Source of the DNA: Scenedesmus sp. ARA3
Taxonomy: Eukaryota > Chlorophyta > Chlorophyceae > Sphaeropleales > Scenedesmaceae
Direction of reading: 5' to 3'
Assembly: GCA_004335835.1 (NCBI GenBank)
Contig: RWJK01000985.1
Coordinates: forward strand, 3,952-67,951
DNA length: 64,000 nt
Part shown: positions 11,198-64,000 of the stretch, in pieces
Numbering within the stretch: the first letter of the stretch is position 1
Layout of the letters: each line of letters begins with the position of its first letter
Translations under genes and position numbers: made by a program
Notes under the pieces: generated by a model
Database searches by the model: none
What the model saw: the letters and a program-made list of their open reading frames with translations, nothing else
Told to the model about the DNA's origin: nothing

Positions 11198-12388
11198 TCA
11201 CTGAGAGACTGCGCCCCCAGCCCCGCCTGAACCAGAGCCACCAGCAGCAGCAGCAGCGACCGCAGCCACACTCCCCCCACCGACCCCCGTAACACCACTG
11301 CTGCCAGCCGCCGCCGCTGCCGCTGCTGCTACTACTGCTTGCCGCTCCTTGGCTGCCGCCTGCGCCTCTGCCAGCACCACCTGCACAGCTCCCAACACCT
11401 CTGCATACTCCCCTGAGCCCTTCAGCGCACCCACCAGCTTCACACCAGCCTCATATATGTACCCGGTATCAAAAACAGCACGCGCCAGATGCTTTGAAAT
11501 TATCACAGCATCCTGAGGCCCCTGCCACCCCCGCAGATCTTCGAAAAAGCCGCCCAGGAATTTGAAAACGCCCACACACGGCCAGGAGACCGCCTCGACC
11601 CACACTGCAATCCCCGGCGCTGCTGCGCCCACGCTGCTGCTGCTGCTGCCGTCGATGCCGCCGCCGCCGCTGCTGCACGCTGCTGCTGCTGCTGCAGATG
11701 CGTACGAGCCCGTGAGCAGGAACGCGCAGCGGTCCTTCGCAAACGAGTCCGGCTGCAGCACCATCAGCGCCAAATGCTTGCGCATCGCTTCCACCATGCG
11801 CACATTTGCGCCGCCTTGATCTTGGGCCGCAGGGTGGGAGTGCAGCGACTTGCACAGAGCAGTGCCAGCAGCGCGAATCACGACCTCACTGACCTTACAG
11901 CAGTTCCAGGATAGCAGGCCAGCCAGCGCCAGCGTGCCCGGAGAGGGCGCAGCCGCAACACATGCGAGCCCGCGCAGCAGTGGCGGCTGCAGCAGCGCCT
12001 TATACGCCTGCTGCGGCAGCGTCAGCGGCTGCCCCAGCTGCACCACTGCTGCCGCTGCTGCTGCCGCTGCGCTTGCGGTGCTGCCTGCAGCTGCCGCGTC
12101 TGCGGCATTTGCGCTGCTTGCAGCTGACCGCAGGTACGGGTTGCGTAGCGGCGGCAGCAGCACATCATTGACGCCCGCCTCACTGCTTTGCGGCTGCACA
12201 GGCAGGGGCAGCGGCCTGCCGTCGGCCTCTGCTGCCAGCTGCGGCAGGTTTGTGGCATGCCTCACGAGCTCAGCCAGCAGCTCATAGAGGGGTGCTACAT
12301 CTTCCAGCAGCATCTCCTCGTCGGGCTCTGCTGCTGCCACGAATGCTGCCAGGATGTCCGCAACGTCCGGCACCACCTGCAGCACCTG
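11198..12388 (-). other. C-terminal exon of the USP9X-like protease
   Basis: This open exon of nearly 400 codons ends the protein at 11198. It is helical, with Ala/Gly/Ser-rich tracts in the middle and at the end. The acceptor is one of two nearby CAGs (exon start 12388 or 12379), both in phase with the preceding exon ending at 13408. USP9X-type proteases carry a long helical C-terminal extension after the catalytic domain, which fits. Confidence 0.75.
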
Positions 12389-14093
12389 CAGCAGGATGGC
12401 GGCAGCATCAGCAGCAAGAAAAGAGTCAGATCGTCAGGCCAGCGTGAACATGTGGTTGCAGGGGATGGAGCCTGAGGCTGCAGGGCAGCAGGCATACAGA
12501 AATCAGAAGGAACAGCAGCAGCAGTAGCAGAGCAAAAGACATCCTCCAGAAGCATATCCTCATCAAGCTCTGCTGCTGCCACGAATGCTGCCAGGATGTC
12601 CGCAACGTCTGGCACCACCTGCAGCACCTGCAGCAGGATAGTGGCAGCAGCAGCAGCAACGAAAGTGCCAGATTGTCAGGCCAGGGTGTACGTGTGGTGG
12701 CAGAGGTTGCGGTTGCAACTGAGGCCGCAGGGGGCAGCAGGAGGACATACATTAGTAGGGGCGGCAGCAGCAGCAGCAGCAGAGCAAGACAACTTCCAGC
12801 AGCAGCTGCCCATCAAGCTCTGCTGCTGTTACAAAGGCAAACAACTGTCATGAACGCTGCCAGAATGTCCGCAGTGTCTTGCACAACCTGCAGCAGCTGC
12901 AGCGGGGATATGTTGTGAGTGCAGCCGTCATGGCTCGTCACGGCAGGCCATCAAACTGAGCGCTGCAGCAGCACCACCCTCTGCACAGTTCTGCACATCC
13001 GCAACTGTTCCATCAAACCACAGATCCAACATACCTGTGCGCAAAGCTGCAGCACAACATCAACGCAGCAGTGCAGGCGCTGCTGGCAGGCTGCCAGCAA
13101 ATCACACACACACATACACAGCAAACCCACTGCTTACATGTACAATGCAATCTCGTGCAAACTATCTGTCAACAGCCAAGCACCCCCCCCNNNNNNNNNN
13201 NNNNNNNNNNNNNNNNNNNNNNNNNNNNNNNNNNNNNNNNNNNNNNNNNNNNNNNNNNNNNNNNNNNNNNNNNNNNNNNNNNNNNNNNNNNNNNNNNNNN
13301 NNNNNNNNNNNNNNNNNNNNNNNNNNNNNNNNNNNNNNNNNNNNNNNNNNNNNNNNNNNNNNNNNNNNNNNNNNNACCCACCCACCCAGCCACCCACACA
13401 CCCGCACCTGCATCAAGTGTGCAGCAGCCCACGGCCCCAGCTGCGCATACCGCAGCAGCACCCGTGCCGCATCAGCGGGTATCTCCGGCACCTCCGGCAG
13501 TCCATTGCCATTGCTGCCGCCCCCTGCTGCACTGCCGCCGCCAGCGCTGCTGCTGCTGGCCTGGTGCTTCGTAGGCACGCAGTCTCGGATCAGCTCTGCT
13601 ACCCGCTCCACAAAAGCCATCACGGCTTGCGCCAGCGGCGGCTGCTGCGCCCGCAGCGCCTGCGCCGCATCCGCCCACGCAGCCGCCGGCAGCTGCTGCT
13701 GCTGAGAGCTCGCCGCACTCCCTGCAGCCCCTGCGCCGCCAAAGATGCTTCCCAGGCGCAGCATCTGCGCCACATAGTCTGCCAGTTGCTTCGCGCAGCG
13801 CTTGCCTGCTGCATCTAGCAGCCAGCCGAGCGTGCTCACTGCCCAGTTCCTCGGGGCCAGCGGCACGCGCTCGTTGTCTGCATCGACAAGGAACAGCTGC
13901 AGCCAGTCGGGGTGGTTGACCGCGAGCTCCAGGAACAGCTGCAATGCAGTGAGCCGGCAGCAGCAGCAGCAGCAGCAGGGGTGCAACGGCTGTTAGCCAG
14001 TGACTGTGTGTTGGTGTGCATCAACCAGGAACAGCTGCAGCCAGTCGGGGTGGTTCAACGCGAGCTCCAGGAACAGCTGCAATGCAGTGAGCC

Positions 14094-14126
<33 letters not shown>

Positions 14127-17100
14127 GGTGCAGACGCTGTCAGCCAGTGACTGTGTGTTGGTCTGCATCGACCAGGAACAGCTGCAGCCAGTCCGGGTGG
14201 TTGACCGCGAGCTTGAGGAACAGCTGCGATTGGGGCAAGCAGCAGCATCATCAGCATCAGCAGCAGCAGCAGGGGTGCAACAGCTGTCAGCCAGTGACTG
14301 TGTGTTGGTGTGCATCAACGAGGAACCGTGAGCTCCAGGAACAGCTGCAATGCACACAGAAGCGTGTACACAAGGGTTGGTGTGATGGGCATCTCAGCTG
14401 CAACAGCAAGTCTGCTTTGGAAAGCAGCAGCAGGAGTCCCAAAAAAACCACGCAGCAGACCGCCTGTCAGATCTTCCCGCACAATTGCAGCCGCACCTGC
14501 ATGCAGCTGTTGCTGCTGGATCCAGATCCCATCAAACTGCCCAGCGCCTCACTCCACACGTGGCAATGCCGGAGCCACACGCATCATCAACTAACATCAG
14601 CCAGCAATAACCTGCAACCAACACACAGCCCAACCACATCCACACCGCGCAACAACAATGTAATCGCACCTGCATGCAGCTGCTGCTGCTGGGTCCGGAC
14701 CCCATCAGGCTCGTCAGCGCCTCGCTCCACACGTGGCAGCGCAGGCGCCAGCATGCCACATCAGCAACATCAGCCAGCAAGCATCAGCAACCAACACACA
14801 GCCCAACCACATCCACACAGCACAGTAACAGTGTAACCGCACCTGCATGCAGCTGCTGCTGCTGGGTCCGGACCCCATCAGGCTCGTCAGCGCCTCGCTC
14901 CACACGTGGCTCTCGCTGCGCAGCACGTCACTGGCCCGCAGTGCCACCTGGAACTGGAATAGCACCCCTAGCCGTAGCAGAGCCTGCGCTACTGCATCAG
15001 CCTCCTCACCCCGCCTGCTGCTGGGGCCTGGGGAGGCCTGCGGCTCTGAAGGAGGGCTGAGCATGAGGCCATTGCTGCTGCTGTGGATGGCTGCTGCTGC
15101 TGCTGGCGCTGCTGCCAGTGCTGGAGAGATGGCCATAGGGCAGGGGCTTGTCGCGCCAGCAGCTGCTGCAGTGGATGCGTCTGCCGCATCGACAATGATC
15201 TGCGGTTGCTGCTGCTTGGCGGCTGCCGCTGTGCCGGCAGCTGGCACGTCGCAGCTCATACTGCTGACGATGCGGCTGCTGCTGCCGGAGCCTCCGCCGC
15301 CTGTTGCTGCTGCTGCTGCTGCTGGTGTGCTGACGCTGCCGTCGCGCCTTCTTGACTTGCGGCTGCTCAGCTGCCCCAGGTCTCCCCTGCTGTCCACCAG
15401 CTGCCTTACAAACCTGAAGTAGTCCTTATCCAGCACGTGCTGCTGCCACATCAGGCTGATGTTGTGCTCCATTACTGACTTGTACAGCCGAAGCGGCATG
15501 TTGTAAGGGATGCTGACGTCGCCGCTCGCAGCATCTGCATCTGCAGCATCCGCCTCACCACCACCACCAGCAGCAGCAGCAGCAGTGATAGTTCTGCTGC
15601 TGCTGGGGCTGGCAGGTGCCATAGCCACATCCCCATCCCCCTGCTGCTGCTCCGCAGCAGCAGCATCTCCTGCTGCTGCTGCTGTCTGCGGCTGCTGCTG
15701 CTGCCGGCGCTCGTAGAACAGCATGTAGGCGCTGTGTGCGCGCTCATACTCGTTCCTCACAGGCCTACTGCCGCGGGAGTCAAAGTCCTGGCTAGGCTTG
15801 CCACCAAAGCACTCCAGCTCCAGCTCTTTTATGTCCCACGGCGTCACTGACTTGTCATCAAAAGCATACCACCTGCCGCCGCTGCTGCTGCTGCTGCTGG
15901 CGGCGCCCTTGCTGCTGCCACCAGCTGCTGCTGCTTGGCGCCGCTCCTTGATGTATGAGTAGTAGTGACCCGTGAATGCAGAGCCAGAGTGCACCACAAC
16001 GCCCATGAGGTCATACATGAACTCATTGCTGCTGCTGCCGCCGCTGCTGCTGCCAGAAGCAGCAGCAGCAGGCTTGCCAGACACAGCATCACTCAGCTGC
16101 CGCGGCAGCCGCCCACCGCCGCCTCCACTGCTGGTGGTGCCGCCACCATCCTGCTGCTCCGAAGCCTCGCTGCCCTGCCGATCTAGCTGCCGCTGCTGCT
16201 GCTGCTGCTCGTCCTGCTGCTGCTCGGCTGCCTTCTGCTGTGCGTCTGCTGCTGCCAGGCCGTCTGCGGTGTACTTGTACATGTCGATCTCAAGTGGGAA
16301 CTCAAAACGGTCCCGCACCTGCAGCAGCAGCAGCAGCAGGAGGCAAAATTGTCAGCATCACAGTCCCTGCAACAAACGCACCCCATATTACCTGGCAAAA
16401 AACCCACCTTGTAACTCGTCTGGCTGAGGTACGCAACTTCAAAGCTCATCAGGTGGATGCACATCATCACTGCACACGATCACTGCTGCTGCACCTGGAC
16501 CAACTTGAGTCTTGAAGCGCGTCAAAACCCCACCTTGTATGTAGCGTGCCTGGTTGTGGTGGTTGAACTCGAAGCGCTTCAGGTGGATGCACAGCATAAC
16601 TGCACAACCTGACTCAATGCGCACCCCTAAACCTAGCCCAGACAGCATCCCAAAACCCCCACCTTGTAGCGCGTCTGGTTGTGGTAGTCGAACTCGAAGC
16701 GCTTCAGGTGGATGCACAGCAGCTGCGGCAGCGCCTTGATGGCGGAGCGCTTCACAGCAGGCACGCGCCGCCCCAGCTCCTCACAGAAATAGGCGTTGTC
16801 GCCCTCCATGAGCTCGCCCTGCGATGCAGCGTAAAATCAAAACATATGAAATAACAACAATGATGACGATGTAACATGTGATTGTGTTGTCGGCAGATTA
16901 AGCTAGTGCGCGCCGCCCCAGCTCTTTGCAGAAGGTGGTGTCGTTGACGTCCATGAGCTCATCCTGTCGTGCGGCAGAAAAGTTAACATGTGACATAATA
17001 ATGACAGTGACAATATGACACATGTTGTGGTGTAGGCAGCTTACGCAGGCACACGCCGCCCCAGCTCTTCGCAAATGCTGGCAGTGTCGGCCTGCTCGCC

Positions 17101-20100
17101 CTCTTGCTACGGTTACTTTTGTGATGTGATCAATTATGGCTGTTACAGCCGTTGTTACAACCATAATGTTATAAGACACACCTTGACATAGTCGTCCAGG
17201 CTGCGCCCCAAGCTGCCCATGCCCTTCACGTCAACGCTGATCTGGTAGAACTCCTCCACACGCTCGCTGCTGAAGGGCTGGCCCGTGCAGATGATCTGCT
17301 GCACGAAGCGCCCACCCATCACGGCAGCGATGGCCGGCGGCTGCCCCGCGGCAATTAAGTGCTGGTCCACACCGTCCTGCGGGCAGAGAAAGAGCAATGG
17401 CATAGTTAAAAAGCATAAGATGGGTGCGGTGGATGCTGCATGATGCAGTAAAGAGTGGCATGTAGAAGCTGGTGTAGGGCTCCTTTGTGTCAAATCCAAA
17501 CGCGCACAGAATACATACGCGCCTGGTGCTTATAAGCACCAATGACCGTACAAGACAGCAAATCACATAACAACATAACATATTGCACCGCACCTGCAGC
17601 CGCGTGAAGAACTCGTAGGCGTCCTGGTGCTCTTTCACATCAATGGGCGAGCCGTCATAGTCCTTAAACGCGCCCCAGAAGTCACGAGGGATGAAGAAGG
17701 TGCTGCGCCCCAGCGCCATCATCGCAAACATACTCTGCAGCAGAGCAAGACAGTACAGTCAGACAGAGCAGTAAACAGGCAGTACAATCAGGCAGTACAT
17801 ACTGGCAGTACATAAACGCATTGCAGTCACGCAGCAACAGTACAGCACCATAGTCCCACCCCAGCCTCACCTGCAGCTGCGCAAACACGCTGTCAGGCGC
17901 CTCGCCAGGCTCCACCGCAGCCGCGCCCAGCATGCCCTCGCGAATGGCCGGCTGCTCGAACGTCTGCTAACACAGTGCAGCAGCTGCAACGACCTGCAAC
18001 CATTGGCCCTGGCCCCCACACCCCATGACACACACAGGAGAGCAAGCACATGCACCAGCCGCCTCACCTGCAGCTGCGCAAACACGCTGTCAGGCGCCTC
18101 GCCAGGCTCCACCGCAGCCGCGCCCAGCATGCCCTCGCGAATGGCCGGCTGCTCGAACGTCTGCTAACACAGTGCAGCAGCTGCAACGACCTGCAACCAT
18201 TGGCCCTGGCCCCCACACCCCATGACACACACAGGAGAGCAAGCACATGCACCAGCCGCCTCACCTGCAGCTGCGCAAAAACGCTGTCTGGCGCTTCGCT
18301 GGGCTCCACCGCGGCCGCGCCCAGCACGCCCGCGCGAATGGCTGGCTGCATGAACAGCTGCTGGAACACCGCATTCATGTAGCACGTGGCGCCGCCATTC
18401 TTCAAGCCCATGTACTGCCCCGGCGCCCGCAGCGGGCGTGGCGACATATTCCAGCCACGCAGTGTCTGCTGCTGATAATGCAGGTCGATCAGCAGCGCCA
18501 CACCCTCTTCTAAGCTGCTGGGGGAGTCCCCCATGAGCTCAGACAGCAGCTCGAGCGCTGCTTTCCGGCAGCTCGGCGTTGCGCAGCGCGGCTCGATCTT
18601 TGCGGCGCAGCTCTGCAGGTCTAAACGACCCGCGGCAGCCGCCAGCTGCTGCACTGCCTCAGGAAACAGGAACTCCTGCAGCAGCAGCCGGATCAGGCCG
18701 CCTTGGCTGTCGCTGCCGACGCCCCGCCGGTCCAAGGTTCGAACCAGCGCCAGCACTAGCTGCAGCCGCCCCTGCAGCAGCATGCATGCTGCTGCCGCAC
18801 TGCTGCTGCTGCTGCTGCCGGCACCGATCGCCGCAGCCGCCGGCGCGGGCGCTGCTGCTGCTGCCCGCAGCGCTGCCACCTCATCATCAAGCATTTGTGT
18901 GGCTACAGCATACAGCTGCTGCGGCAATGCACCCCAGGCTTTGCCCACGCGTGCAACCATGGCTGCAAGCAGCTCATAAAACTCCTCGCTGCTGCCAGGG
19001 AGGGCTTGAGCCACTGCCCGTGCTGCTGCCAGCTGCTGCAGCAGCCACGGCAGCAGCCTGGGGTGCGTCTCGCTGCTGACTAACCTCTCCAAAAGCTCTG
19101 CTGCTTGCCTGCGCAGCGCCGCATGATGTGGATTGACCAGCACAACGCTGATCAACGGACTCTGGTCAACGTCTAACAGCAGCGCCTGCACCAGTGCAGG
19201 CTGCTGCTCTAACAGCCGCAGCAGCAGCTGCAGCGCATCCTTGACTACCATGACATCTTTGTCCGCTGCGTGATCGTCCGATGAGTCGTCATCTGACGAA
19301 GTGCTGCTGCTGCTGCCGCTGCTGCTGCTGCTGCCCGCGCCATACAGCTGGCTGGTATCCACTGCAACCTGCAGCAGCGTATCTGCCATGAGCTTGAACG
19401 AGCTGCAGCCAAACACTGCCGCAAAGCTCTGCGCTGCTGCTGTTGCTGCTGCTGCGTGCCCAGCAGCAGCTGGCAAGCCGACGCTGCCCTGCGAGGCAGC
19501 AGCAGCAGCAGCAGCAGAGGGCGGCAGCGGCGGCAAGTCCCCGCCTCGCTGCCGCTGCTGCTTCTGCTTTTGCTGCTGCTGCTGCTGATGCCCATTGCCG
19601 GGCTGTGGTGAGCTCAAAGCATCCTCCATAGAAGGGCTGCCTGGCTGCTGCTGCTGCTGCTGCTGCTCCGTCATTGCACTGCTCGGCTGTTGTACATCAT
19701 TATTAGTGCCACACCCGGCGCTGCTGCCTCCCTCATCACCCTGCTGCTGCATTCCTGTCATAGCAGCAACCCCGCTATCACCCGGCGCTGCTGCCACCGC
19801 TGCTGCCGCGCCCGCGCCGCTCTCTGCGCCACTCATTACTTCTGCTGCTGCGGCATTCGCTGGCCCTGCAGCTTGCGCTTGGCTCCATGCGTGTGCTGCA
19901 TCTACTAGGTTGTGCAGCAGCATCACAAGCAGCTCTGACAGCTGCCGCCGCAGCTTCAAGTCGCTGCTGCAGCCGCATGCTGCTTTGCGGGCAGCAGCCA
20001 GTACCACTTCCAGCCCCCTACTCTGCAGGAACTCCTGCTGCTGCAGCTCCCGGTGCTGCTGCCGCTGCTGCGCCGCTGCAAACGCTGCCTGCGCTGCCGC

Positions 20101-21824
20101 CTTTTCCTCTGCGAGCGCGTCGTCTGCTGTAGGACTTGCTTCCGCATCTGGCGCCTCTGCAGTTGCCTCAGCATCCGGCGATTCCTGCAGGAACAGCGAC
20201 TCATCAAACGTCGGAAACAGCAGGGAGCACAGCGCCTGCAGCGCGTACAGCGTCTGGTGCGGCGCCGATGCCGCATCCGCTGCTGCTGAGTCCGCAGCAG
20301 CAGCAGCAGCGTCCTCTTCCATGCTGCTGCTGCCGGCGTCAAGTGCTGCTGCCAGCTGCTGCTGCTTGTCAGGGCCGTCCAGTGCTGCTGCCAGCCGCTG
20401 TGTGAGCGCTGGGTAAGTTGGCATCAGCGACAGCAGCTCTAGGGCCATAGAGGTGAGCTCAGAGCTGAATGAGCTGCCAGGGCTGTCGATGAGCTGCAGC
20501 AGCAGCGGGTACGCGCCATCCTGCAAGAGCAGACACACAGCACAGCACAGCAGCTGGCGTCAGGTGCAGGGCAGCAGGCTGGATGACGCGGTTTTCACAG
20601 CCAATGAGCTGCAGCAGCAACCGGTAGGTGCGTTCCTGCAAGCGCTTACAAAGCAGCGCAGCAGAAGACAGCAGCTCTAGAGCCATTGAGGTGAGCTCAG
20701 TGCCAAATGAACTGCCAGGACTGTCGATGAGCTGCAGCAGCAGCGGGTATGCGCCATCCCGCAGGAGCACAGAACAGCAGCAGAACATGAGATCAAGGGA
20801 CGGTTTCAGGTCACATGCAGTAAGCTGCCAGGGCCGTCAATGAGCTGCAATAGCAGCGGGTACGCGCCCTCCTGCAGCAGCACAGAACAGCAGACGGCAG
20901 AGAAATCCTAAGGCAGGGTGTTCTGTATGCAGTGAGCTGCCAGGGCTGTTGATGAGCTGCAGCAGCAGCGGGTACGCACCCTCCTGAGAGCGACACAGCA
21001 CAGCAGCAGGCATCAGAGGCAGGGATATCACAGCAGGTACATGCTGGCTGCTTGCAGTGCTGCCCTTGTGCGCAAGTTCAGTTCAGTTCACACTGCTCTG
21101 TCAAACTCACCGCCTGCGCCAGCATCCACGACATACTGACTTGCTCGTACACACTCCGGAACTCTGCCGGTGCTAGGCTGTACGCATTTGGCTCTGGGCT
21201 GACCACTGCCGTCACCACTGCGCGGTTGGTGGCGGTGCCGATGCTGCGGTGCTTGCTGTCCCACAGCGGCAGCTCCAGCGTGCGCGCGTCGTTGCTGAGC
21301 TCGTGGCCTGCAAACATCCAGAAGGCAACAAACAACAGGAGTTGTGAATAAAGAATATATAGATGTCATAGAAGACTGCTGGAAGCATAGTGGTTGCTGT
21401 CCCACAGCGGCAGCTCCAGCGTGCGCGCATCGTTGCTGAATTCGTGGTCTGCAGACATCCACAAAGCAACAAGTGACAGAGGTTTTGAAAAGATACTACA
21501 CAGATGTCATAGAAGACCCTTCCCTCCTTCCTTGCACACTTCCACTCACCGAAGCAGAACATGCGCACGTGCTGCATGCTGCTGCAGATCTGCTGCACCG
21601 GCGCTGCCCCCTAAGGATACTGCTGCCTTTCCTCCCGCACTTCCACTCACCAAAGCAGAACATGCGCACGTGCCGCATGCTGCGACGATCTGCTGCACCC
21701 GGCGCTATCCCCTAAGCATACTGCTGCCCTTCCTCCCCCACTTCCACTCACCAAAGCAGAACATGCACACGTGCTGCATGCTGCAGCCGACCTGCCGCGC
21801 CAGCCGCCATTCACCCCCTATGCC

Positions 21825-21856
<32 letters not shown>

Positions 21857-51326: not shown

Positions 51327-51370
<44 letters not shown>

Positions 51371-51743
51371 TGATGCCGAGGGCGCCTTCTTCAGCAAGTC
51401 CGCAGCAGCAGGCAAGGTGCAGCACGTGGAGCAGCTCAAGTACAAGGTGGGCGGCAGCAGCGGCAGCAGCGGCAGCAGCGGCAGCAGCAGCGGCAGCGGC
51501 AGCAGCGGCGGCGGCGGTGGTGGCAGCAGCAGCAGTGTGCAGCAGCTGTGAGGCACAGCTTCTGTATGCTGCATCTGCGCCTGCTCTGTCAGCAAGGGTG
51601 CTACGCCCAGCAGCAGCAGCAGCAGCAGCAGGAGCAGCAGCAGGAGCAGCAGCCGGGCAACATCACACCATCGTACGGATATCAGTATATGACGGTGCTG
51701 GTAGTGCAGCGCAAAGCTTCGTAGCCTGCGCCGCTGCAGCCGC

Positions 51744-51788
<45 letters not shown>

Positions 51789-52547
51789 TAACTGTGTTGG
51801 TAGTGCACCGCAAAGCTTCGTAGCCTGCGCCGCTGCTCAGTCGGTGCAGCGCATTGGGATACTTTGCGACAGCAGCGCCTGCTGAATCTGGCACGCGCGC
51901 CCCTGCACATCAATAATCCAGCAGGGAGCGGGCCACTGATTGGCAGTACAATGCAATGCAATGCATCCAGCTGCACCAGCAGATGCAGCATCGCTTGCAT
52001 CTGTGCTGTAGGAGCACAGCTAATCTTTACGGTTCTGTGCACTGCGCAATCGATGCACGCTGGTGTTCACTATTCCCTGCTGCCCTGCTTCTGCCGTGCT
52101 GCCTGCTCTGATGGCAACATCCGCAAAACCCTGGAACTGCCAAAACCCCAAACCCCAGAACCTGGCAGTTGGCATGAAGCTGTGGGGTTGTGTGCTGGAG
52201 GTGGCCCCCGAGGGTTTAACTGTCAGCCTGCCTCATGGCCTGAGGGGCACAGTGGCACCAGAAGAGGTGAGCAGGGTTCAGGTCTGTGCAGTGTATTACG
52301 GTACCAGGGATGTATCCAGCTGTTGATGCATTGGGGCCAATGCAGCACAGTGCAGTACCCGCTGCCTACAGCCACAATCAAGGTCACACTTTGGGAACCC
52401 TCAGCCTCCGACTGCTGCCACCTGCTGCAAATGCTGCTATCTTGCTGCTATTCTGCTGCTGCTCTGCAGGCCTGAAACGTGCTGACCCTGCTGCTGCACC
52501 ACCACACCACTGGCAGCCATATCTTGTCACCGCTGCTAACTTGCTGC

Positions 52548-52592
<45 letters not shown>

Positions 52593-54273
52593 AGGCCTCA
52601 GACGTGCTTGCCCTGATGCTGGACAGCAGCAGCAAGCGCGGCGCAGCACTGCGGGCAGCCATGCCTGGCAGGGCTGCGCCAAGCCTGCCGCAGCTGTTTT
52701 CGGTTGGGCAGTTTGTGCGCTGCGTGGTGGCGGGGCTGTCAGCAGCTGGCGGAGAGGCGGATGAGGCGGCAGCAGCAGCTGACGCAGGAGCAGGTGAGGT
52801 GCTTGAACAATATCATCATCTCAAATGCCTTGGCAACGAAAAGAAAGCAACAGAAAGTGCAACCAAACATGCTGTGGGAAATTACAGGGTTGCAGGGTTG
52901 ATCTCTGTATAACAGCCCACCGGTATGAACCACAATGTGTGTCTGTTGCATGCCTGCCTGCAGGCGACTCCCGCAAGGCGCGGCCGGCCGCCAATGTCAT
53001 CACACTCTCAATCACTCAAATGAGCTGAAATTTTGATCTCTGTTGCGCGCCTGGTGCTTCTGCAGGTGGCTCCCGCAAGGCGCGACCAGCCTCCAAACGC
53101 ATCGCGCTGTCGCTGCGCCTCAAGGCACTGGCCGGCAGCAGCAGCACCAGCAAGGTCAGCGGCAGCAGCAGCAGCAGCAGCGGTTTGGGGCCTGAGGCGC
53201 TGCTGCCGGGTCAGGTGCTGCCTGCTGTGGTGCGCAGCGTGGAGGACCGTGGCTACAGCCTCACCTTTGGCATCAAGGTGGGTGTTATGTTGTTATTTTG
53301 TTATTTTATCACTATGTTACTATGGTTGTTACTTTTGGGGATTTCAGCGGTAGATTGTCAAGGCTGCTCTGATTCAGGCTTGGGTGCGGAGTGCAGCCTG
53401 CAGCATCAAACAGGGAGCTGGGAGCAGCATTGCTTGCAGGTGACTTGTTTCGTGGCAACATGCCCAAAACTGCCATTTTGCAGCTTTTCTCGGCGCAATG
53501 CATGTGCGCTCAGCAGCTGGACACGGCAGGAGCTCAGACAGCAGTGCAAACAGCATAAGTTTTAGGTGTACTTAGTGCCGATCTGCTGCTGCTGCCGCTG
53601 CTGCTGCTGCTGCTGCAGGGTGTGACGGGCTTCCTGCCTGCCAAGGACTATGCCACCTACTACGGCGCTGACAGCCCGCTACTGCCAGGCAGCTTGCTGG
53701 ATGTAGCAGTGGCAGCAGCAGCAGCAGCAGCAGGCGGCAGCAACAGCAGCAGCAGCGGTGTGGTTCAGGTGTCGGTTGCGCATGATGCTGTGTCAGGGGG
53801 TCAGCTGCAGCAGTGGGAGGGACTCAACATGGGCAGCCTGATGCCAGGCGCGCTGGTGTCCTGCAAAGTGCGGCAGGTATGTACGATGTTATTTTGTATG
53901 TTATAACATCATCATAACACTGCTTTTGTACTGCTGGGCAGATGGCGAGGCTACAGTTTCGATCACGCACTGGTGCTGTTATAAAATGTTTGCTTACGTT
54001 TGCGCATTAGCCTCCTGCTGTTCTGCTTCTGCGGCTGCTGGTGGTGTGAAGTTATGCCAGGCGCGCTGGTGTCCTGCAAAGTGCGGCAGGTTCGCAACGT
54101 GTTAATTTAACGTGTTGTAACATGTTATAACATGTTACATGATAACTCTTTGTCAGGTGGGCAGTGCTGACTGTAATGCTGCGGGTTCACTCAGGCACTG
54201 GTGCTGAAGTGAGATGCTGATGTACCAGCTCCCTCCACTTGCTGCTGCTGTTGATGATATGAAACAAATGGCA

Positions 54274-54307
<34 letters not shown>

Positions 54308-57283
54308 CAGGTGTGCCCTGATGGCGTGCTGGTGTCCTTTTGCGGCTTCTTCCACGGCGCCATCGACCACTGCCACCTGGGCAGCCCAGTACCAGAGGAC
54401 AACTGGCAGGCCAGGTGCGGCGCATTCGGCATTTTTCAGACCCCGTCATACCTTTGATCAGCCCCACATCATAGTGATGGCGGTTGCCAGGGGTTTAATT
54501 ATGCAGTGTCGTTGGCTTTGGGTTTTTGGTTTTGTAGCGTGTGCGGCTGCCTGGTGTGCTGGGCCACCGCCACCTGGGCAGCCCAGTGCCCGAGGACAAA
54601 GGGCAGGCCAGGTGCAATGGGAGCAGCACTATTCAAGCCCTTTGACAAGCTCCACACCATAGTCACATGTAACTATCCTCTCTTTTTTATAGTTAACCAA
54701 TGCTTACAAGACCGATTGGCATCGCTGCCATACCTGCTTGCCTTTGGGATGCACCTTGCAGGTACAAGCCTGGGCAGCGGCTGCAACTTCACCAAAGCCA
54801 ATGCAGCTGATCTGATGTAAAATAACCCACAACCCACAATAAACAATAAACCACAGAATGCTGCACACCCTGCCCCTTTGCTGCAGGTACAAGCCTGGGC
54901 ACCGGCTGCAGGCGCGGCTGCTGTACGTTAATCCAGCCAGCAAGCGCATCGGGCTCTCCTGCCTGTCCCACCTTCCCGTTTTTTAAATGTGCAACATCAC
55001 AGAAGCCATTGTAGCCAATCCTGTGCAAAACCACTCACAATCAGCCACAAAATGCTTATCAATTCTGCCGCTTCTGCTGCACGTACAAGCCTGGGCAGCG
55101 GCTGCAGGCGCGGCTGCTATACGTTGATCCAGCCAGCAAGCGCATCGGGCTGTCCTGCCTGCCCCATGTGCTTTTGAAAACTTGCAACATCACAAAAGCC
55201 ATTGTAGCTAATCCTGTGTCGAATACTTACAATAAACCACAAAATGCTGCATAATCCTGCTGCTATTCCATCCTGCAGGTACAAGCCTGGGCAGCGGCTG
55301 CAGGCGCGGCTGCTGTACGTTGATCCAGCCAGCAAGCGCATCGGGCTGTCCTGCCTGCCCCACCTGCTCAACTGGCGGCTGCCCACCGCTGTTCCCGCTA
55401 TGGGTCAAACCTTTGACCAGGCCGTCATCGCGCGCGTTGACCAGGGTGTAGGCCTGCTGCTGCGGCTGCCCACTGAACCCGAGTCAGCAGTAGGGTTTTG
55501 CCACGTCAGCAACTTGGCGGATGGGCAGCTGGGCAAGGGGGAGATTGAGAAGCGGTTTAAGGTCGGGGGTTTAGTGAGGGGCCGCGTGATAGGGTTTAGG
55601 CTGGTGGACGCGCTGGTGGCGATGAGCCTCAAGGAGAGCGTGCTGGCACAGCAGGTGAGGGTTCAACCGGCAGGGTTTAGGATGCTGGTGTAAAGTTTAA
55701 TGCAGCAGTGTTGCCAGGATGTGCAGTCATGTGTACCTCACGGCAATCAGCTTACTGCAGCTACACAGCCCATATCCTATAGCACGCCGCCTGTCAGCAG
55801 CATTGCTCACACCAGGGTTGGGTTGGGCACATGCTGTTCCAGCCACACTTGGGTCTTTTGTCTCTCACATCTCCTGCCACTTTTGTCGCTGCTGCTGCTG
55901 CTGCTGCAGGTGTACTCGGTCAAAGACCTGTACCCCGGCCAGCACCTGGATGTAACAGTGCTGGATGCCACATCAGCAGGCCTCGTGGTTCAGATCACGC
56001 CAAACCTCAAGGGTTTAGTCCCCAAAACCCACATGACCGACGCCGGGGTTCTGGCCGAGGGCTCAAAGCTGCCCAGCAAGCTAAAAACCGGCAAAACCCT
56101 GGCGGCTAGGGTTTTGTCAGTTGATCCAGTGGCCAAGAGGGTTCAGCTGACGCTGAAGAAGGGTTTACTGGGGTCTAAGCTGCCAGTGCTCTCAGATCTG
56201 CGGCAGGCGGCACAGGGAATGAAGCTGCACGGCGTCGTGTCCGGGGTTCAGGGTTTTGGCGTCTTCGTGGGGTTTTACGGCGGCGTGTCGGGGCTGCTGC
56301 CTAAAGCGCACCTGGACCTGCTGCCTGGCCAGACCCCTGCTGACCTGTACAGTGTGGGCCAGCTGCTGCGCTGCCAGGTGGGTGGCTAATGAGATTATTC
56401 GGTGATTATGTTTGATAATCAGTAATCATCAAGCAGCTGAGGGCTTTCTGCAGAGCACAACTCAGCCCTGCCAGTAGCGTATGAAGCGTTTGTGCGTTAT
56501 CTGCGTGATTGTTGCAGGGTTGCTGTGCAGTAGTCATCAGTGTGGTCATTTCCGCATACAGTTACGTGCACACCCCTTTACAAGCTGCTGCAGGTGGCGT
56601 GAGTTGACGTGCGCACATGTTGGCTGGCATGCATTGCGTTACTGCTGCTACACCACCTACACCTCTCATGCTGCTACCCTCACACACATGCAATCACATG
56701 CTGCTGCACGTGGCGTCAGTGGACCTGCGCAATGGCCTGCCATCATTTGATCCAATCTATCAATGCAAAATGCGCTCAACTGTAATACATGCCTTATGTC
56801 TGCTTTCATATTGCTGCAGGTGGCGTCGGTGGACCTGCGCAAGGGCGGCCTAGTGCTGAAGCCCTCCAGCAAGAAAGCAGCAGAGGAGGAGGCAGCAGCA
56901 GCAGCAGCAGATCGCGCTGCTGCTGCTGCTGCTGGGGACCCCTGGGGGGGCCTGGCAGTTGGATCGCTGCTGCAGCAGGGGGCAGTGGTGCAGCAGGTAC
57001 TGCTGCGGCCGGCTGAGCAGGGCGGCGGTTTAGTGGAGCTCACAGTGACAGGTGGGTGGGGTTGGGGTTTAGGTTTAGGGTGGATTGGGTTTTGCAGTAT
57101 TCATCCCGCAGGCTTGAACGCCTGCTTTGACTTCGGCAATAGATACATGGGTTGTGGCATGGCACTTGTGTTTGCTTATGGGGTGATGCATGCTGTGCAG
57201 CAGTATATGCAGCTTGATACTTGTGGTGCATGTCTGCTGTTTGCTGAACCCACCACTCATCACATCTGATCTAATACCTGGTC

Positions 57284-57324
<41 letters not shown>

Positions 57325-58096
57325 AGGCGCCAACGGCCAGCCAGTGCTGGCCCACCTGCCAGCTTCCCACCTCAGCGACCACCCCGGCGGCGCCGAGGGT
57401 TTACTGGGCGTGCTAAAACCCGGCCTCACCCTCCCAGGGCCCCTGCTGGTGCTGCAGCAGCGGCGTGTAAACCCTAACACCCAGGGTTTAGCCGGCGACA
57501 GGTGGCAGGGAGACAAGGACGGGTCTGGCGCAGCAGAGCAGCAGCAGCAGCAGCAGCGCAAGGGCGATGGTGTGCCGATGCTGCTGCTGAGTCGGAAGGC
57601 TTCGCTGGTGGCTGCTGCTGCTGCTGGGAGTCTGCCGGAGTCAGTGGCGCAGGTTGCTGCTGGAGCGGTGCTGCCAGGCTATGTGGCAAGCGTGACACGC
57701 GATGCAGGTGTGTTACTTTTGGTGTGCTATAACTGTTATTGTTGTTGTCATTGATGATGCGGCTGACTGTGTATGCTCGAGCCTTCTTGCGGTGCTGCCT
57801 GGCTATGTGGCCAGCGTGACTTGTGATGCATGTGTGTTGGTTTTGATGGTATTACTGCTGGTATTGTTGTAGGCTCAGCTGGCTGCTTGCATATGCTCTA
57901 GCTTGTTTGTGCATCTGTGCATGTGTGCAGAGCATGCAAAGCTCATGTGTGCTGTTATGCAGCGTCGTCTTTGTGTGAAATGTTATGTATGTTTGATGTC
58001 TTGGATGTCTGCAGTGCTGCTGCATATCCACCATATGCACCGCCGCTGCATATCTGCTGCGTATCTGCTGTGTTTGTGCAGCCATAACAACACTGG

Positions 58097-58130
<34 letters not shown>

Positions 58131-58911
58131 CCGCAGTGTTTGTGCGCTTCCTGGGCCGCTGCACCGGCCGGGCCGGGCTGCCGCAGCTGTCTGACACATT
58201 TGTAACAGACCCGGCGCGTCACTTTTCCGTTGGGCAGTCGGTTGTGGCGGCCGTTGTGGCGGTTGAGGGTTCAGGCGGCGGGGAGGGTTCTGCGGCAGCT
58301 GGCGTGGCTGCTGTGAAGTTCGCAGTGAGCTTGAAGCCGAGCGTGGTGGGAAGTCACGAGGGGCAGTTCCTGGCATCACTCATGAGGTAAGAAAGAGTGA
58401 GAGGAGTCAGAGGAGTGACAGTGGAGTGACGCTGTGGGGAAGTGTGACCACACAGATCAGCTGCTATGTGTTGGCAGCGTATGCGTTGAAATGATGGCCG
58501 GATACGTTACGTTCATTGCATTTGGTGCCTTGTTTGAAGTGAGCTTAAGCTTGCAATGGAGTGCGGTGGGAAGTCACGAGGGGCAGTTCCTGGCGTTACT
58601 CATAACTGAGAAGAGTGAGGGAGTGACAGTGGGGAAAGAGTGACACCAGACGTAAGCCTCCATGTAACAAGTTGCCTTGAAGCCTCCATGTGCATGTGGG
58701 CTGGCTATGCTGTATAGAGAGTTACAGCGTGCGTGCAGGTCTGACATTACAGGCAAGCATAATGCAACATAATGAGAATTCACATGGCTAGAGATGGCGC
58801 TGTGTTAGATGATGCCAGGATAGGGTTGTGCAGTGCGTGGCTTGCCTCCAAAACCTTGTTCAACTGACTCTGCTGTGTTCGACAACCAACCACTGAAATA
58901 TTGCTGCTGTG

Positions 58912-58953
<42 letters not shown>

Positions 58954-60092
58954 AGCGACCTGGAGCTGGCGTACATGCTGCAGCAGCAGCAGGCGGCAGC
59001 AGAGGAGGCCGATGGCAGCGGCAGCGGTACGGAGGAGGAGGCAGCCACTGCTGCTGTTGCTGACTGGGTGGCACTGACACCTGGCAGAACTGTGGCCGGC
59101 AAGCTGCACGAGCTGCGGGTGAGGGTTAGTAACAAGTGTTAATAACAACATGACAACAATGCTATACATCATGTGATGTGTGCTGTTGCCATATTTGTTT
59201 GCATGTGTGCCGCAGATGCAGGCTGGAGCTTCTATGCTGCATGTGTAGAAGGGTCGGGTGCAGGTCAAGTTGCTGGCCTTGCAAATGCATGCAGCATACG
59301 TTGGTAATGCTGCTGCGCTGCTGCTGCTGCTGCAGGGATATGGCGCTGTGATTGACGTTGAGGGCTACCCTGATGTGGTGGGGCTGGTCACACCAGACCA
59401 CGGCGGCACTGCAGACCTGCAGGGTAAGTGTTAGTTGTGTTATGTAACATGTTATGTAACAGTGCTACATGTTACATATTCAACATTTTGAGAGCTGCCG
59501 TGACATGGTGGGGCTGGTGACGCCAGACTACTGCGGCACGGCAGACCTGCAGGGTAAGTGCTGGGTTGCAAAACATGCCAGTTGTCAGTGTAAGGTGCTG
59601 CAAGTTGATGGCAGCTCTGCTGTCCCCTGTTGCATCTCTAGCAGTCAACTCTGTTCACCAGCATTTGCTATGCATGAAGTGGCCACATCAGGTTTCTTTG
59701 TCTGCTTCACACTTCCTGCTGCTTTTGCTGCTATTGCTGCTGCTGTCGCTGCTGTTGCGGCTGCGGCTGCTGCTGCTGCTGCTGCTGCAGGCACAGGCAG
59801 CTTGGATCTGTGCATTCTGGATGTGGTCAAAACCTCGGGCCTAGTGGAGCTCAGCAAGCTGCCATACCTGCTCAACATGCAGCAGCCGGCAGCAGCAGCA
59901 GCTGGCAGCAGCAAGAAAGCCTCAAAGCGAGCAGCAGCAGCTGCAGACGCACAGCAGCAGCAGCTAGCTGTTGGGCAGGAGGTGCAAGCGATGGTGCAGT
60001 TCATCAAGGATCATTATGTGGTGGTGTCGATCGTGCAGCAGCAGCAGCAGCAACAGCAGAAAAAGGCCAAAAAGGACAGCGCCGACGCAACC

Positions 60093-60127
<35 letters not shown>

Positions 60128-63100
60128 CAGCCACCACGGCATCGCATTTGTGGCAAGGGGTGACTTCAACAGTCAAGGGGCAGCAGGCAGGGAGGCTCGC
60201 CGCTTTGCACACAACCAAGTGGTTGCAGCAAAGGTGGCAGGCTTGCAGTCAGCCGGCAACGGCGGGCGCCTGCTGCTGGAGGTGAGGCGCGGTTGGGGCT
60301 GCCATGTTGACTGATTTAAGGTTGTGCATTGTCCCAAAACTCTACACGTCCAAGTGTAACTTTCGATCAATTACTTCCAGCTGGTGCGAGCAATGTTTTT
60401 GCAGATCGCACAATGCTCGTGGCAGTGTTGCCTTGCCTAATCTGGTCTGTGCTGCTGCTGCTGCCTGTGGTGCTGCTGCAGCTGAACCAGCCGCTGCTTC
60501 CTGGCAAGGGCGCAAAGGGCGGCGCTGCTGCTGGCACTGCTGCTGCTGCTGCTGGCGGCGGCAGTAAGCCTGCTGCTGGTGCTGTGGTGGCAGCCACAGT
60601 GGTGGCTGTACATGAGCTGGAGCTGGAGATGGCGGTGGGCAAGGTGGGCAGGGTTTTATGGATGCTGTTTTTCAGGGTTTGAGAATATACTGTTTGTTAG
60701 GGCCTTAGGGTCTGGGCCACCAGCGTGGCAGTGCATGAGCTGGAGCTGGAGATGGCAGTAGGCAAGGTGGGCAGGGTTTTGTTCGTGACGTTCATCAGGG
60801 TTTAAGCAACTGTTTGGGGTTTTGGAGCTGTGGTGTCAGCCACAATGGTGGCGGTGCATGAGCTGGAGATGGCAGTGGGCAAGGTGCGGTTTGTGACCTG
60901 ATCTTGGAGATAACTGTCAAGAATTGAACATCCACCATCAAATATCATAGTGGTTGAGGCGGCTCATAGCTGTACCTGTGATGCTTTCCGAGTTCTGCCA
61001 ATGCTGCAGTCTGGTGCGACAGCGCACCCGCACGTCTCCGAGCTGCAAGAGCGGCTCACAGCGCTGCTTTGAATGCGTCATGCATTGTAATCGCTGAAAT
61101 GATAAAACTGCTGTTACGTTCGCTTTCATGCTCGCAGGCTGCAGCCACAGCACACCTGCACGTCTCCGAGCTGCAGGAGCGCCTCACAGCACTACCTTCA
61201 GCGCCAAACGGCAACCCGCTCAGTGGCTTCAAGCTGCAGCAGCTGCTCAGAACCTTCCAAAGAGTATCGGCTCAACTAACATTTGTCTGTTTGCCTTTTT
61301 AATCGAAACACAACAAGTTACAAGTAGCTGAATGTTGCTGCTGTACCTTTTCATGTTTTCCCACATTCCTGCAGGCTGCGGCCACAGCGCACCTGCACGT
61401 CTCCGAGCTGCAGGAGCGCCTCACAGCACTACCTTCAGCACCAAACGGCAACCCCCTCAGCAGCTTCAAGCTGCAGCAGCAGCTGACAGTGGCCTGGCTG
61501 GGCCATGTGAGGGGCCTAGGGCACAAGCGCGGCAAAGAATCGCAGCTGAGTATGCGGCCATCAGTGCTGGCGGCAGCAAAGCAGCAGCAGCAGGTGAGGC
61601 ATTTTTCAGGATGGGGGTTAAGAAGAACTATTGGGGCTGTGTTGCTTTTTGCGTTGCAGTGTACCTTGTGTTTTGCCTGTGGTTTGTATGTGTCGAGGTT
61701 ATGTTTTGGGTTGCTGTTGTGTGGTGGCCTGGCTGGGCCATGTGAGGGGCCTAGGGCACAAGCGCGGCAAAGAATCCCAACTCAGCATGCGGCCATCAGT
61801 GCTGGCGGCAGCAAAGCAGCAGCAGGTGAGACGATTTCCAGGACCGGGGGCTCAACAAAGCTTCTGGGGTTGTGTTGCTTTTTGCGTTGCAGTGTATCTT
61901 GTGTTTTGCCTGTGGTTTGTATGTGTCGAGGTTATGTTTCGGGTTGCTGTTGTATGGTGGCCTGGCCGGGCCATGTGAGGGGCCTAGGGCACAAGCGGGG
62001 CAAAGAACCCCAACTGAGTATGCGGCCGTCAGTGCTGGCGGCAGCTAAGCAGCAGCAGCAGGTGAGGAAGATGGCGCTCAATCACATGCATCATCACTGT
62101 AGCGCTGACACGTGTCTTCCAGTGCGACACTGTGTGATGTGAAAAGAACTTTGCAGCATGGTCGAGTCAACTCTACTGCTGCAGGGTGCTGCTCGCACCG
62201 GTGCTAACAGCCGCCGACCTACACCCCGGCCTGAAGGTGGTGGGCTGGGTGGCGGGCTTCACCAAAGATGCCCTGCGGCTGTCAAGCTCAGCCCCTAACC
62301 CTGCTGTTTCAAATCTTGATGCTGCAGGGTGCTGGCAAGGCCAAGCCTGCACACATTCCGTGTTGTTGCTGTCAAAAATCAACACCCAAACACTGTGTTC
62401 AATTCTCCTGATTCTGCAGGGTGCCGGCAAGGCCAAGCTCGCGCCGGTGCTCACAGCCGCCGACCTGCAGCCAGGCCTCAAGGTGGTGGGCTGGGTGGCG
62501 GGCTTCACCAGAGATGCCCTCTGGCTGTCAAAGCTCAGCCCCTAATCCTGGTGTGTCAAATTTTGATGCTGCAGGGTGTCGGCAAGGCCAAGCCTGCACA
62601 CATTCCGTGTTGTTCCTGTCAAAAATCACACCCAAATACTCTGTTACAATGCTCCTGATTCTGCAGGGTGCTGGCAAGGCCAAGCTCGCGCCGGTGCTCA
62701 CAGCCGCCGATCTACACCCCGGCCTGAAAGTGGTGGGCTGGCTGGCGGGCTTCACCAAAGATGCACTCTGGCTGTCCCTGGCACCTGAGCTCAAGGGCCG
62801 GGTGCACCTGCTGGAGTCAGCCGACAGCCCTGAGGCTTTAGCGGCAGGATTTGAGGCGCGGTTTAGCATGGGGCAAGGTTTAGTGGCGGTTGTGCTGGGC
62901 GTGGATGCAAAGCAGCACACGCTAGATCTGAGCTTGAGGGGAGATCGGCTGCGGAGAGGGATCTCAGATCCAGCAGCAGCAGCAGCAGGGGCGGCAGCAG
63001 CAGCAGCAGACAGGCTGGCTGGCGGTGCGCTGGTGCCAGGTCGCATTGTGTCAGTGACAGGGTCTGGGGTTGTGGTTCAGCTGGGGCCTAAAACCCTGGG

Positions 63101-64000
63101 TGTTGCGGCAGTCACTGACATCCATGACAGCTGGGTGCCTAATGCCCTGGCAGGGCTCAGCGCTGGGGTTTATGTGCGTGCTAGGGTTTTAGCGGCCGAG
63201 GGTGCTAAACCCCGCAGCAGCGGCGCCGCAGCAGCAGCAGCAGCAGTAGACAGCAAAGGCAGGGTTTTGTTGTCGCTGAGGCCCAGTGAAGGGGGGCAGC
63301 TGGCAGCAGAGGAAGGCACAGCAGAAGCAGCAGCGCTGGCAGCAGCAAGCAAGCAGCGGCAGCAGCAAGGAGCAGCAGCAGCAGCAGCAGGCCTCCTGCT
63401 GCAGCCTGATCAGCTGACGGTTGGCAGCAAGGTGAGTGGCAGGGCTTGCAAACAAGCTGGCGCGGTGTCTGCATGCTGGCTGCTGTCATGCATACAGTTG
63501 CCTCTTGTTCTTTTGTTGCACCTGCACTTTATGCACTGTATGGGCTGCTGCCGATTAGAACATTTCACAGCTCTTCACTGCATGCTGGTGCCAATTGCAG
63601 TTGCCGGGCTGTGTCTCCTTTGCACTGAACATGGATGATGGCCTTCCAAGGATATTCCATCAAGTGCCTGACTGCAGTGGCCGGGCAGTCTGTGTCAAGT
63701 ACACTGCATGCCTGCACTGGCACTCATACTGCCTTGCTTTTATTGTTCTTTACTTTTAGTATTGGCTGCGCGTTCTCATGTTGTGCTTCATTGCACCCGC
63801 AGGTGCAAGGCTACGTGCGCAGCGTGTCGACCAAAGGCCTGTTCGTAACGCTCGACCGCATCCGCGACGCTCGCGTGAAGCTGTCGCAGCTCTCCGACGG
63901 ATTCGTCGAGGACCCCGCGGCCGCGTTCCCTGTCGGCTCGCGCGTCGAGGGCCGAGTTGTGTCGGTCGAGCATACGAAGCCGCCCCCAGCAGCAGCAGCA
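50669..64000 (+). CDS. RRP5: RRP5/PDCD11 rRNA biogenesis protein (3' end beyond window)
   Basis: A nucleolar S1-repeat protein needed for pre-rRNA cleavages leading to 18S and 5.8S rRNA. Nineteen phase-consistent exons: 50669-50875, 51369-51446, 52159-52266, 52595-52793, 53066-53277, 53619-53876, 54311-54414, 55279-55654, 55910-56377, 56820-57051, 57327-57707, 58137-58386, 58956-59118, 59336-59423, 59791-60281, 60482-60643, 61375-61593, 62667-63431, and 63803 to the edge, giving about 1,650 residues. The N-terminus has the family motif EAFPRGG, then a Lys-rich stretch. About 12 S1 domains follow, for example GMKLWGCVLEVAPEGLTVSL, QLFSVGQFVRCVVAGL, GQHLDVTVLDATSAGLVVQI and VQGYVRSVSTKGLFVTLDRI. 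Twelve matches yeast Rrp5. The C-terminal HAT/TPR repeats lie outside the window. Ala/Gln/Gly inserts sit between domains. The first ATG in frame after an upstream stop is at 50669. Confidence 0.95.
52960..54620 (+). repeat. Exon echoes beside RRP5 exons 5, 6 and 7
   Basis: The exon 5 start (GSRKARPASK) has an upstream copy at 52965-53000 (GDSRKARPAAN) with CCTGCAG acceptor. The exon 6 end (MPGALVSCKVRQ, donor) is repeated downstream at about 54054-54092. The exon 7 end (HLGSPVPEDNWQA, donor) is repeated at about 54545-54615. Confidence 0.9.
54755..55370 (+). repeat. Exon echo: four copies of the RRP5 exon 8 acceptor segment
   Basis: The real exon begins at 55279. Copies of YKPGQRLQARLLYVDPASKR with GCAG or CACG in front lie at about 54762-54790, 54888-54972 and 55082-55168, spaced 125-195 bases. 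The flanking AATAAACCACAAAATGCTGC-like intron text is copied with them. Confidence 0.95.
56580..58640 (+). repeat. Exon echoes beside RRP5 exons 10, 11 and 12
   Basis: The exon 10 start (VASVDLR) has upstream copies at about 56590-56620 and 56703-56738. The exon 11 end (LPGYVASVTRDA) is repeated at about 57788-57832. The exon 12 end (VGSHEGQFLASLM) is repeated at about 58562-58605. Confidence 0.88.
59360..60890 (+). repeat. Exon echoes beside RRP5 exons 14 and 16
   Basis: The exon 14 end (DVVGLVTPDHGGTADLQ, donor GTAAGT) is repeated at about 59500-59560 (MVGLVTPDYCGTADLQ, same donor). The exon 16 end (VAVHELELEMAVGK, donor) is repeated at about 60722-60770 and 60847-60888. Confidence 0.9.
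61000..62065 (+). repeat. Exon echoes on both sides of RRP5 exon 17
   Basis: Acceptor-side copies of AATAHLHVSELQERLTALPS lie at about 61138-61265 (long, with GCAG) and 61008-61070. Donor-side copies of VAWLGHVRGLGHKRGKE through the GTGAG donor lie at 61725-61830 and 61960-62065, with a period of about 235 bases. Confidence 0.95.
62175..62790 (+). repeat. Exon echo: five copies of the RRP5 exon 18 acceptor segment
   Basis: The real exon begins at 62667 (GAGKAKLAPVLTAADLHPGL). Upstream copies start near 62184 (acceptor followed directly by VLLAPVLTAADLHPGL-like text), 62328, 62420 (almost complete, through KVVGWVAGFTRDALWLS) and 62572. Each is preceded by CTGCAG. Confidence 0.95.

Follow-up and report, generated by a model that had tools for sequence, protein, structure and literature searches.

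The growth of introns is commonly attributed to transposons or small insertions. In 2009, Gao and Lynch reportedly described internal gene duplications across exon-intron boundaries, which gave rise to duplicated coding sequence and new introns. Tandem genomic duplication, a local duplication of gene DNA together with its splice signals in which the protein can stay unchanged, is described as a mechanism of intron gain in the pertinent section of a review (PMC3443670), and the potato RdRp gene is presented as a case of intron gain by AGGT duplication in the corresponding passage of another paper (PMC4974935). The passages on the LRR genes of Tetrahymena report arrays of 90-bp exon-intron units, in which whole exons of one gene family are translated and for which the authors invoke unequal crossing over (PMC6564038). 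In the present study, a related pattern was analysed in a 64,000-nucleotide stretch of contig RWJK01000985.1 from the green alga Scenedesmus sp. ARA3 (hereafter the window), where many exon ends recur, together with adjoining intron sequence, as tandem copies within the neighbouring intron. These copies are referred to as echoes. Among the open-access titles and opening lines of abstracts listed, a scope that leaves out most subscription journals, no earlier description of such junction echoes was found. Tetradesmus obliquus has a mean intron length of 462 bp, the longest of four Sphaeropleales compared (the others 230, 284 and 302 bp; PMC5966456), and long volvocine introns have been discussed as well (PMC8226300); the passages considered here from these two papers describe no such junction duplication.

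The window was analysed together with the adjoining 10 kb of the same contig (locus L006), 74 kb in total. It contains a USP-type ubiquitin protease gene of 24 exons (11201..32681, minus strand) and an RRP5 gene of 28 exons on the plus strand (50669..64000 in the window, continuing to 70893 in the adjoining DNA). Both gene structures were fixed by spliced alignment to near-identical proteins of relatives, P0079, P0080 and P0081 for USP and P0001 for RRP5. The USP exon list was merged from the P0080 and P0081 alignments with the exclusion of a doubtful 9-bp exon. The RRP5 alignment depended on the intron penalty: with a low penalty, a 25-bp piece was assigned to an echo copy and zero-length exons appeared; with a higher one, neither occurred. 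In these alignments all 24 USP and 28 RRP5 exons are bounded by CAG acceptors and GT donors and contain no internal stops. RRP5 is identical to P0001 at 2170 of 2206 aligned residues, and the search listing gives the protease a match of 96% to P0079 (eukprot jgi/Sobl393, SZX59989.1; strain UTEX 393, going by its name) and to the T. obliquus protein P0081. By these matches the DNA comes from T. obliquus or from a species very closely related to it.

Self-comparison of the 74 kb returned 99 local direct matches (offset of at most 1500) against 8 far ones, and ten dinucleotide-shuffled versions of the same DNA contained no local direct match, in agreement with the local repeats that a first-pass annotation of the window had described. 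The local matches group into 44 arrays, 40 of which fall within USP and RRP5. Thirty-eight of these 40 straddle exactly one splice junction (19 donors and 19 acceptors; 19 arrays in each gene, of which 11 in RRP5 lie in the window) and two, one per gene, are confined to an intron; none is internal to an exon and none spans two junctions. In a separate junction test, up to 100 exon bases and 10 intron bases of each junction were searched for in the adjoining intron. At a score of at least 60, 36 of 100 junctions had their sequence repeated in the intron that they border, compared with 1 of 2199 controls in unrelated introns. None of 38 comparisons with the wrong-side intron, across the exon, gave a match, and no inverted copy was found at the 100 junctions. 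Acceptor-type copies thus lie upstream and donor-type copies downstream of the real exon, as had been proposed; by itself this direction is no pointer to a special mechanism, since any protein-neutral duplication of a junction must look like this. A finer search with a score of at least 48 detected 85 copies at 41 of the 100 junctions. The window proper holds 64 copies at 31 junctions in sets of two to six, counting the real junction, which matches the first-pass estimate of more than 30 boundaries or boundary copies in such sets. The exon-end echo pattern is confirmed as real and strong.

The echoes share features with each of the closest systems and coincide with none of those compared here. 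As in the duplications that Gao and Lynch are said to have described, the duplicated DNA may include splice sites, but three of four gene models in the present case have proteins that lack the copies. Intronic minisatellites likewise consist of head-to-tail units of more than 10 bp; the echoes differ in being registered on splice junctions, with units of about 90-270 bp and 2-6 copies. The Tetrahymena LRR arrays, as far as the cited passages go, are also built of tandem exon-plus-intron units, whereas the unit described here comprises one exon end, is mostly absent from gene models and occurs in unrelated genes (PMC6564038).

In the protease gene, all arrays were located on the minus strand by self-comparison. 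Acceptor-type arrays accompany the exons 11201-12376 (12297..12906), 13408-13938 (13876..14354, unit about 138-147), 18265-20520 (20429..21024, four copies), 23601-23688 (23656..24319, five copies), 24824-24979 (24912..25462, four copies), 26720-26851 (26792..27108, unit 114) and 28867-28950 (28898..29442, three copies). Further acceptor-type echoes belong to the exons 16663-16818 (16764..17081), 21111-21307 (21249..21517), 21869-22061 (21983..22267), 27515-27823 (27779..27933) and 29779-29922 (29858..30039). Donor-type arrays were found at the exons 14843-16318 (14491..14910, unit 173), 16663-16818 (16396..16721), 18265-20520 (17864..18369, unit 197), 21869-22061 (21526..21928, three copies), 24824-24979 (24438..24881), 26035-26433 (25663..26114) and 27515-27823 (27224..27571). 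One copy in the array of unit 197 (17871-17963) corresponds in alignment to an additional exon of the model P0079. The exception is an intron-only tandem duplication (30112..30344), seen in self-comparison and in the masked-exon test described below. Two other repeats were noted in or near this gene: a tandem duplication with an offset of 93 at 11040-11190, just past the last USP exon and perhaps in the 3' untranslated region, and a short repeat at an intron end (17737-17813) with matches on the contigs C1278, C436 and C806, a small dispersed minisatellite-like element.

The RRP5 arrays of the window, all on the plus strand, were located in the same way. Donor-type echoes follow the exons 53619-53876 (53841..54132), 54311-54414 (54367..54615), 57327-57707 (57665..57870), 58137-58386 (58328..58624) and 59336-59423 (59358..59560), and donor-type arrays the exons 60482-60643 (60577..60886) and 61375-61593 (61489..62067, unit 235). 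Acceptor-type arrays precede the exons 55279-55654 (54757..55368, three copies), 61375-61593 (61001..61484) and 62667-63431 (62191..62776, unit 246), and an acceptor-type echo precedes exon 56820-57051 (56702..56846). Here, too, self-comparison and the masked-exon test revealed one intron-only tandem duplication (51619..51836).

The units measure 103-269 bp, taking the best junction-bearing match of each array. Their exon part spans 17-111 bp (median 59.5) and their intron part 40-189 bp (median 83.5; n=38), close to the 30-110 and 50-170 bases claimed at first, and the exon fraction averages 0.41 (sd 0.11, n=38). The exonic breakpoint is often common to the copies of one array, as expected if a founding event was then multiplied; several arrays mix two breakpoints. 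Copies differ from the exon by about 10%. A decay of the exon sequence with distance, part of the first-pass description, is present and weak: mean exon identity is 0.917 in inner and 0.880 in outer copies, and inner copies are the more similar in 15 of 25 multi-copy arrays (p=0.04). For the copy closest to the junction, the similarity of its intron part to the real one exceeds z = 5 at 24 of 41 junctions and lies below z = 3 at 11; over all 85 comparisons the corresponding numbers are 39 and 32. By our own tally of the rows, the intron part of the outermost copy falls below z = 3 at 23 of 41 junctions. Unequal exchange between the exon-derived parts would yield such outermost copies without the real intron part.

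Most copies are non-coding. The reading frame is kept in 67 of 85 copies, which agrees with the remark that copies often stay in frame; a maintenance of the frame is not supported, as 37 of 41 indels are not multiples of three. Unit lengths show no frame preference either (14, 11 and 13 by remainder modulo 3), and both features are as expected of non-coding copies. On inspection of the copy edges, an interpretation of the copies as complete mini-exons was rejected. The changes that set an exon apart from all its copies fall mostly on third codon positions (6, 5 and 28 for the three positions), and changes unique to one copy in multi-copy columns are also uneven (68, 45 and 87). At third positions occupied by A or T in the exon, about 40% of the copy bases are different, which suggests that often the exon and not the copy made the change. 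These A/T positions at echo junctions hint at a recent drift of the exons towards A/T that the copies escaped.

Introns with an echo have a median length of 626 bp (n=24) and those without one of 338 bp (n=26), which supports the claim that introns lengthen by local duplication of their own ends, although longer introns also give more room for echoes. About 22% of the intron bases in USP and RRP5 (5712 of 25959) are recognisable copies of adjacent exon ends, in spans that include up to 12 bases of splice flank.

The copies bring splice sites into the introns. Of the 78 copies that extend as far as the splice dinucleotide, 74 have it intact, an upper estimate since alignment ends favour matches. 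When each copy was scored by its best site within 2 bases, donor copies averaged 6.06, while real donors reached 6.75 and the whole set of intronic GTs -3.92; the mean of the acceptor copies was 4.81, compared with 6.96 for real acceptors and 0.49 for the intronic background. Only 8 of 85 copies lack any splice site, and 43 of 85 (22 of 36 donors, 21 of 49 acceptors) score no worse than the lower quartile of real sites. In strength, the splice sites of about half of the copies thus equal ordinary real ones, and spare sites abound as the first-pass annotation had stated. Its further suggestion, that these sites feed alternative splicing, could not be substantiated with the gene models at hand. 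In a scan for segments of at least 16 residues, no doubled segment was present in three of the four models aligned to USP and RRP5 (P0001, P0079, P0080, P0081). A direct scan of 21 proteins for tandem segments gave two positives, P0079 and P0010, and a blastp search for tandem peptide repeats in 63 proteins was discarded because it missed the positive control P0079. P0010, the RRP5 model of Chlamydomonas sp. UWO 241, contains a 34-residue tandem repeat (residues about 1890-1962) that resembles an echo copy taken into the model; this repeat hints that the pattern may reach the Chlamydomonadales. The transcript-type protein P0195 (eukprot GHRQ01038494) aligns in one block through two echo-bearing junctions of the epsilon-COP gene without any copy.

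That the pattern is widespread in the genome, as proposed, is supported by 65 arrays in 20 other loci comprising 167,763 bases, of which 16 were drawn by contig number and 4 from a GTAAGT pattern search. In the epsilon-COP gene on another contig (L014; 205 of 213 residues identical to the aligned P0167), all five arrays straddle one junction. With exons from the gene finder, 56 of the 65 arrays mix exon and non-exon sequence compared with 43.6 expected, which is a weak test of placement. Intron counts in these loci come from a self-trained gene finder and are approximate; on this basis, 16 loci carry 59 arrays over 302 predicted introns and differ strongly from one another (chi-square 39.8, 15 df, p=5e-4). 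No echo array was observed in L011 (19 predicted introns; a flippase by our own reading), L015 (14) and L020 (21), compared with 20 arrays each in USP and RRP5.

Matching copies were also found in proteins from outside this assembly. In P0079 the USP echo (...QPAIREGMLGAAAVEPGEAPDSVFAQLQ) stands next to the real segment (...QPAIRAGVLGAAAVEPSEAPDSVFAQLQ), and the residues in which the two differ are those of the copy in the window. In P0276, predicted from a 'jgi' contig, the epsilon-COP exon is followed by different sequence and then by an echo at the same donor, and this echo shares with the epsilon-COP copy of L014 a Tyr-to-Cys change that is specific to the copy. Judged from these sequences, at least two echoes, those of USP and epsilon-COP, appear to pre-date lineage splits, and the epsilon-COP exon copy appears to have outlived the surrounding intron in the case of P0276.

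In our opinion the echoes probably are local tandem duplications across one splice junction which were neutral for the protein and were then multiplied and eroded inside the intron. The founding step would be a tandem duplication of about 90-270 bp across a single junction, perhaps through replication or repair errors of unspecified kind. The exon would remain continuous with the outermost splice site, i.e. the first donor or the last acceptor, so that the protein stays unchanged and the inner copy comes to lie inside the intron. Such a copy has one of the two sites that define an exon and, under exon definition, would be ignored by the spliceosome. Once two copies are present, unequal exchange or slippage could expand the set to up to six; amplification between copies is suggested because the intron part found at the real junction recurs more often in inner copies and is frequently missing from the outermost ones. 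The intron-derived half would erode fast and the exon-derived half more slowly, because the partner of the latter, the real exon, is held by selection. This account builds on the observed duplication of junctions, the position, number and divergence of the copies, the loss of the intron half, the copies in outside models, the decoy sites and the longer echo introns; from these we infer the splicing outcome in vivo and the mechanism of duplication at the DNA level.

Several observations weigh against this account. One group concerns the copies themselves: several combine an exon part of 93-94% identity with an intron part devoid of similarity, a pairing not expected from a simple one-step duplication. 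For arrays with an unrelated outer intron part, insertion with a long target duplication was considered, but faint similarity beyond the donor is visible by eye in many of them and makes an old tandem duplication likelier. The other points concern the scarcity of intron-only arrays, the narrow range of the exon part, the conservation of inner copies and the copy exon of P0079, and are given with the explanations that they favour.

Splice junctions might be hotspots of 100-250 bp tandem duplication through a DNA process coupled to splicing or transcription, a possibility that we regard as rather doubtful. Such hotspots could be due to transcription-replication conflict where the polymerase pauses at splice sites, or to exon ends that coincide with a chromatin boundary. 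Equally tentative is the fuller version, in which some 20-110 bp of exon end and 40-190 bp of intron are copied repeatedly into the intron, drive intron length genome-wide and seed decoys as strong as real sites. The strong differences between loci point in this direction, as does the rarity of intron-only arrays. When protein-neutral duplications, defined as lying inside an intron or across one junction, were placed at random, 40-42% were intron-only once array copies had been taken out and 57-62% in the present introns, compared with 2 of 40 observed (2 of 45 if epsilon-COP is included). Events confined to an intron are, however, less easily detected because intron sequence erodes faster than exon-derived sequence. 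For a fair detection, all exon-derived bases were masked and only intron-derived repeats counted; 16 clusters then lay inside junction arrays and 2 elsewhere (2 of 18; P=0.008 if 40% are expected, and 0.14 if 25%). A looser cut-off gave 18 and 2 (2 of 20; P=0.004 and 0.09, respectively). An enrichment at junctions over intron interiors is thus present, and moderate once detection is fair.

The size of the exon part leads to a similar assessment. Even units of 170-270 bp contain no exon part above 111 bp, which has a P of 0.0007-0.003 if placement is uniform within functional limits, and the exon fraction of 0.41 compares with 0.28 for free placement, which should also vary far more. The standard deviation is not unusual, however, if at least 30 exon and at least 60 intron bases are required (P=0.19), both minima having been set after the data were seen. 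The lack of exon parts longer than 111 bp persists (P=0.003). Duplication of a junction keeps the outer splice pair and leaves the mRNA unchanged, so that the positional rule largely follows from geometry and selection. We conclude that these explain most of it. A modest bias towards junctions is likely but unproven, and this excess and the limit of about 110 bp on the exon part remain unexplained by geometry and selection.

That selection maintains the copies as functional alternative exons or as splice regulators is improbable. The intact splice dinucleotides and the high donor scores would fit such a role, as would P0079, the one of the four models that carries a copy as an in-frame exon. 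When copies are compared with their exon, the ratio of nonsynonymous to synonymous differences (pN/pS) amounts to 0.23 in inner copies (bootstrap 0.17-0.30) and to 0.34 in outer ones (bootstrap 0.26-0.44). A simulated neutral copy, next to an exon in which only synonymous changes are tolerated, gives 0.42 (sd 0.05). Inner copies thus look more conserved than neutrality allows, which we cannot fully reconcile with neutral duplication. Differences by codon position are 0.068, 0.038 and 0.166 in copies without and 0.106, 0.086 and 0.182 in copies with a frameshift. Coding selection on inner copies was nevertheless not accepted, as frame-shifted copies show equally low ratios (0.19 and 0.33). The frame-breaking indels and the three gene models without a doubled segment also speak against function. 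A mutually exclusive or cassette exon needs a second splice site, and reading by eye revealed neither an AG regularly preceding donor-type copies nor a GT regularly following acceptor-type copies, with P0079 as an exception.

Intron gain by tandem genomic duplication of an AGGT exon segment, or the insertion of introners, is very unlikely to account for the arrays. Tandem duplications with splice sites are the raw material of the intron-gain model in the section of the review cited (PMC3443670), and 38 of 40 arrays are local direct duplications that bear splice signals. In that model, however, an exonic segment makes a new intron with mutually copied ends, whereas here an existing junction is copied into an existing intron, and donor and acceptor regions of the same intron were mutual copies in none of 50 introns. 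The echoes resemble tandem genomic duplication, yet they are not intron gain. Introners, too, add intron sequence across a genome, but do so as dispersed families according to the passages cited (PMC9860276). Two echo arrays were searched in the 87.3-Mb genome with a tool that skips very common words: the first had no match besides itself; the second also matched a nearby part of its own contig and gave four short hits, at one intron end, on three other contigs. Both are essentially single-locus, in keeping with the 8 far against 99 local self-matches, and the same element was not found dispersed over many genes.

A false tandem duplication from assembly or polishing is hardly credible, for although the assembly is fragmented (1567 contigs) and the window has one N gap (13191-13375), the copies have diverged by about 10% from the exon, and the matching copies of P0079 and P0276, with copy-specific residues and, in P0276, different intervening sequence, do not arise from this assembly.

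Beyond the two genes, self-comparison revealed tandem arrays in the region that the first-pass annotation assigns to the cysteine-rich and zinc-knuckle genes, at 40474..40854 (unit about 91-99; minus strand, from the gene finder only), 41040..41560 (offset 213) and 44161..44447 (offset 224), the latter two with no strand assigned. At 45738-46009, a glutamine-rich predicted exon contains tandem repeats with lengths of 72 and 87 bp, each divisible by three; they are perhaps a frame-keeping counterpart within an exon.

The echoes show a route by which introns can grow without a change in the protein. Their dozens of natural decoy sites provide a ready-made test of how the spliceosome chooses the outer pair. 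As exon changes fall mostly on third positions and the copies seem to keep older bases, echoes may also serve as built-in outgroups for the exons that they accompany. If splice junctions should prove to be hotspots, duplication coupled to splicing or transcription would drive intron length genome-wide in this lineage.

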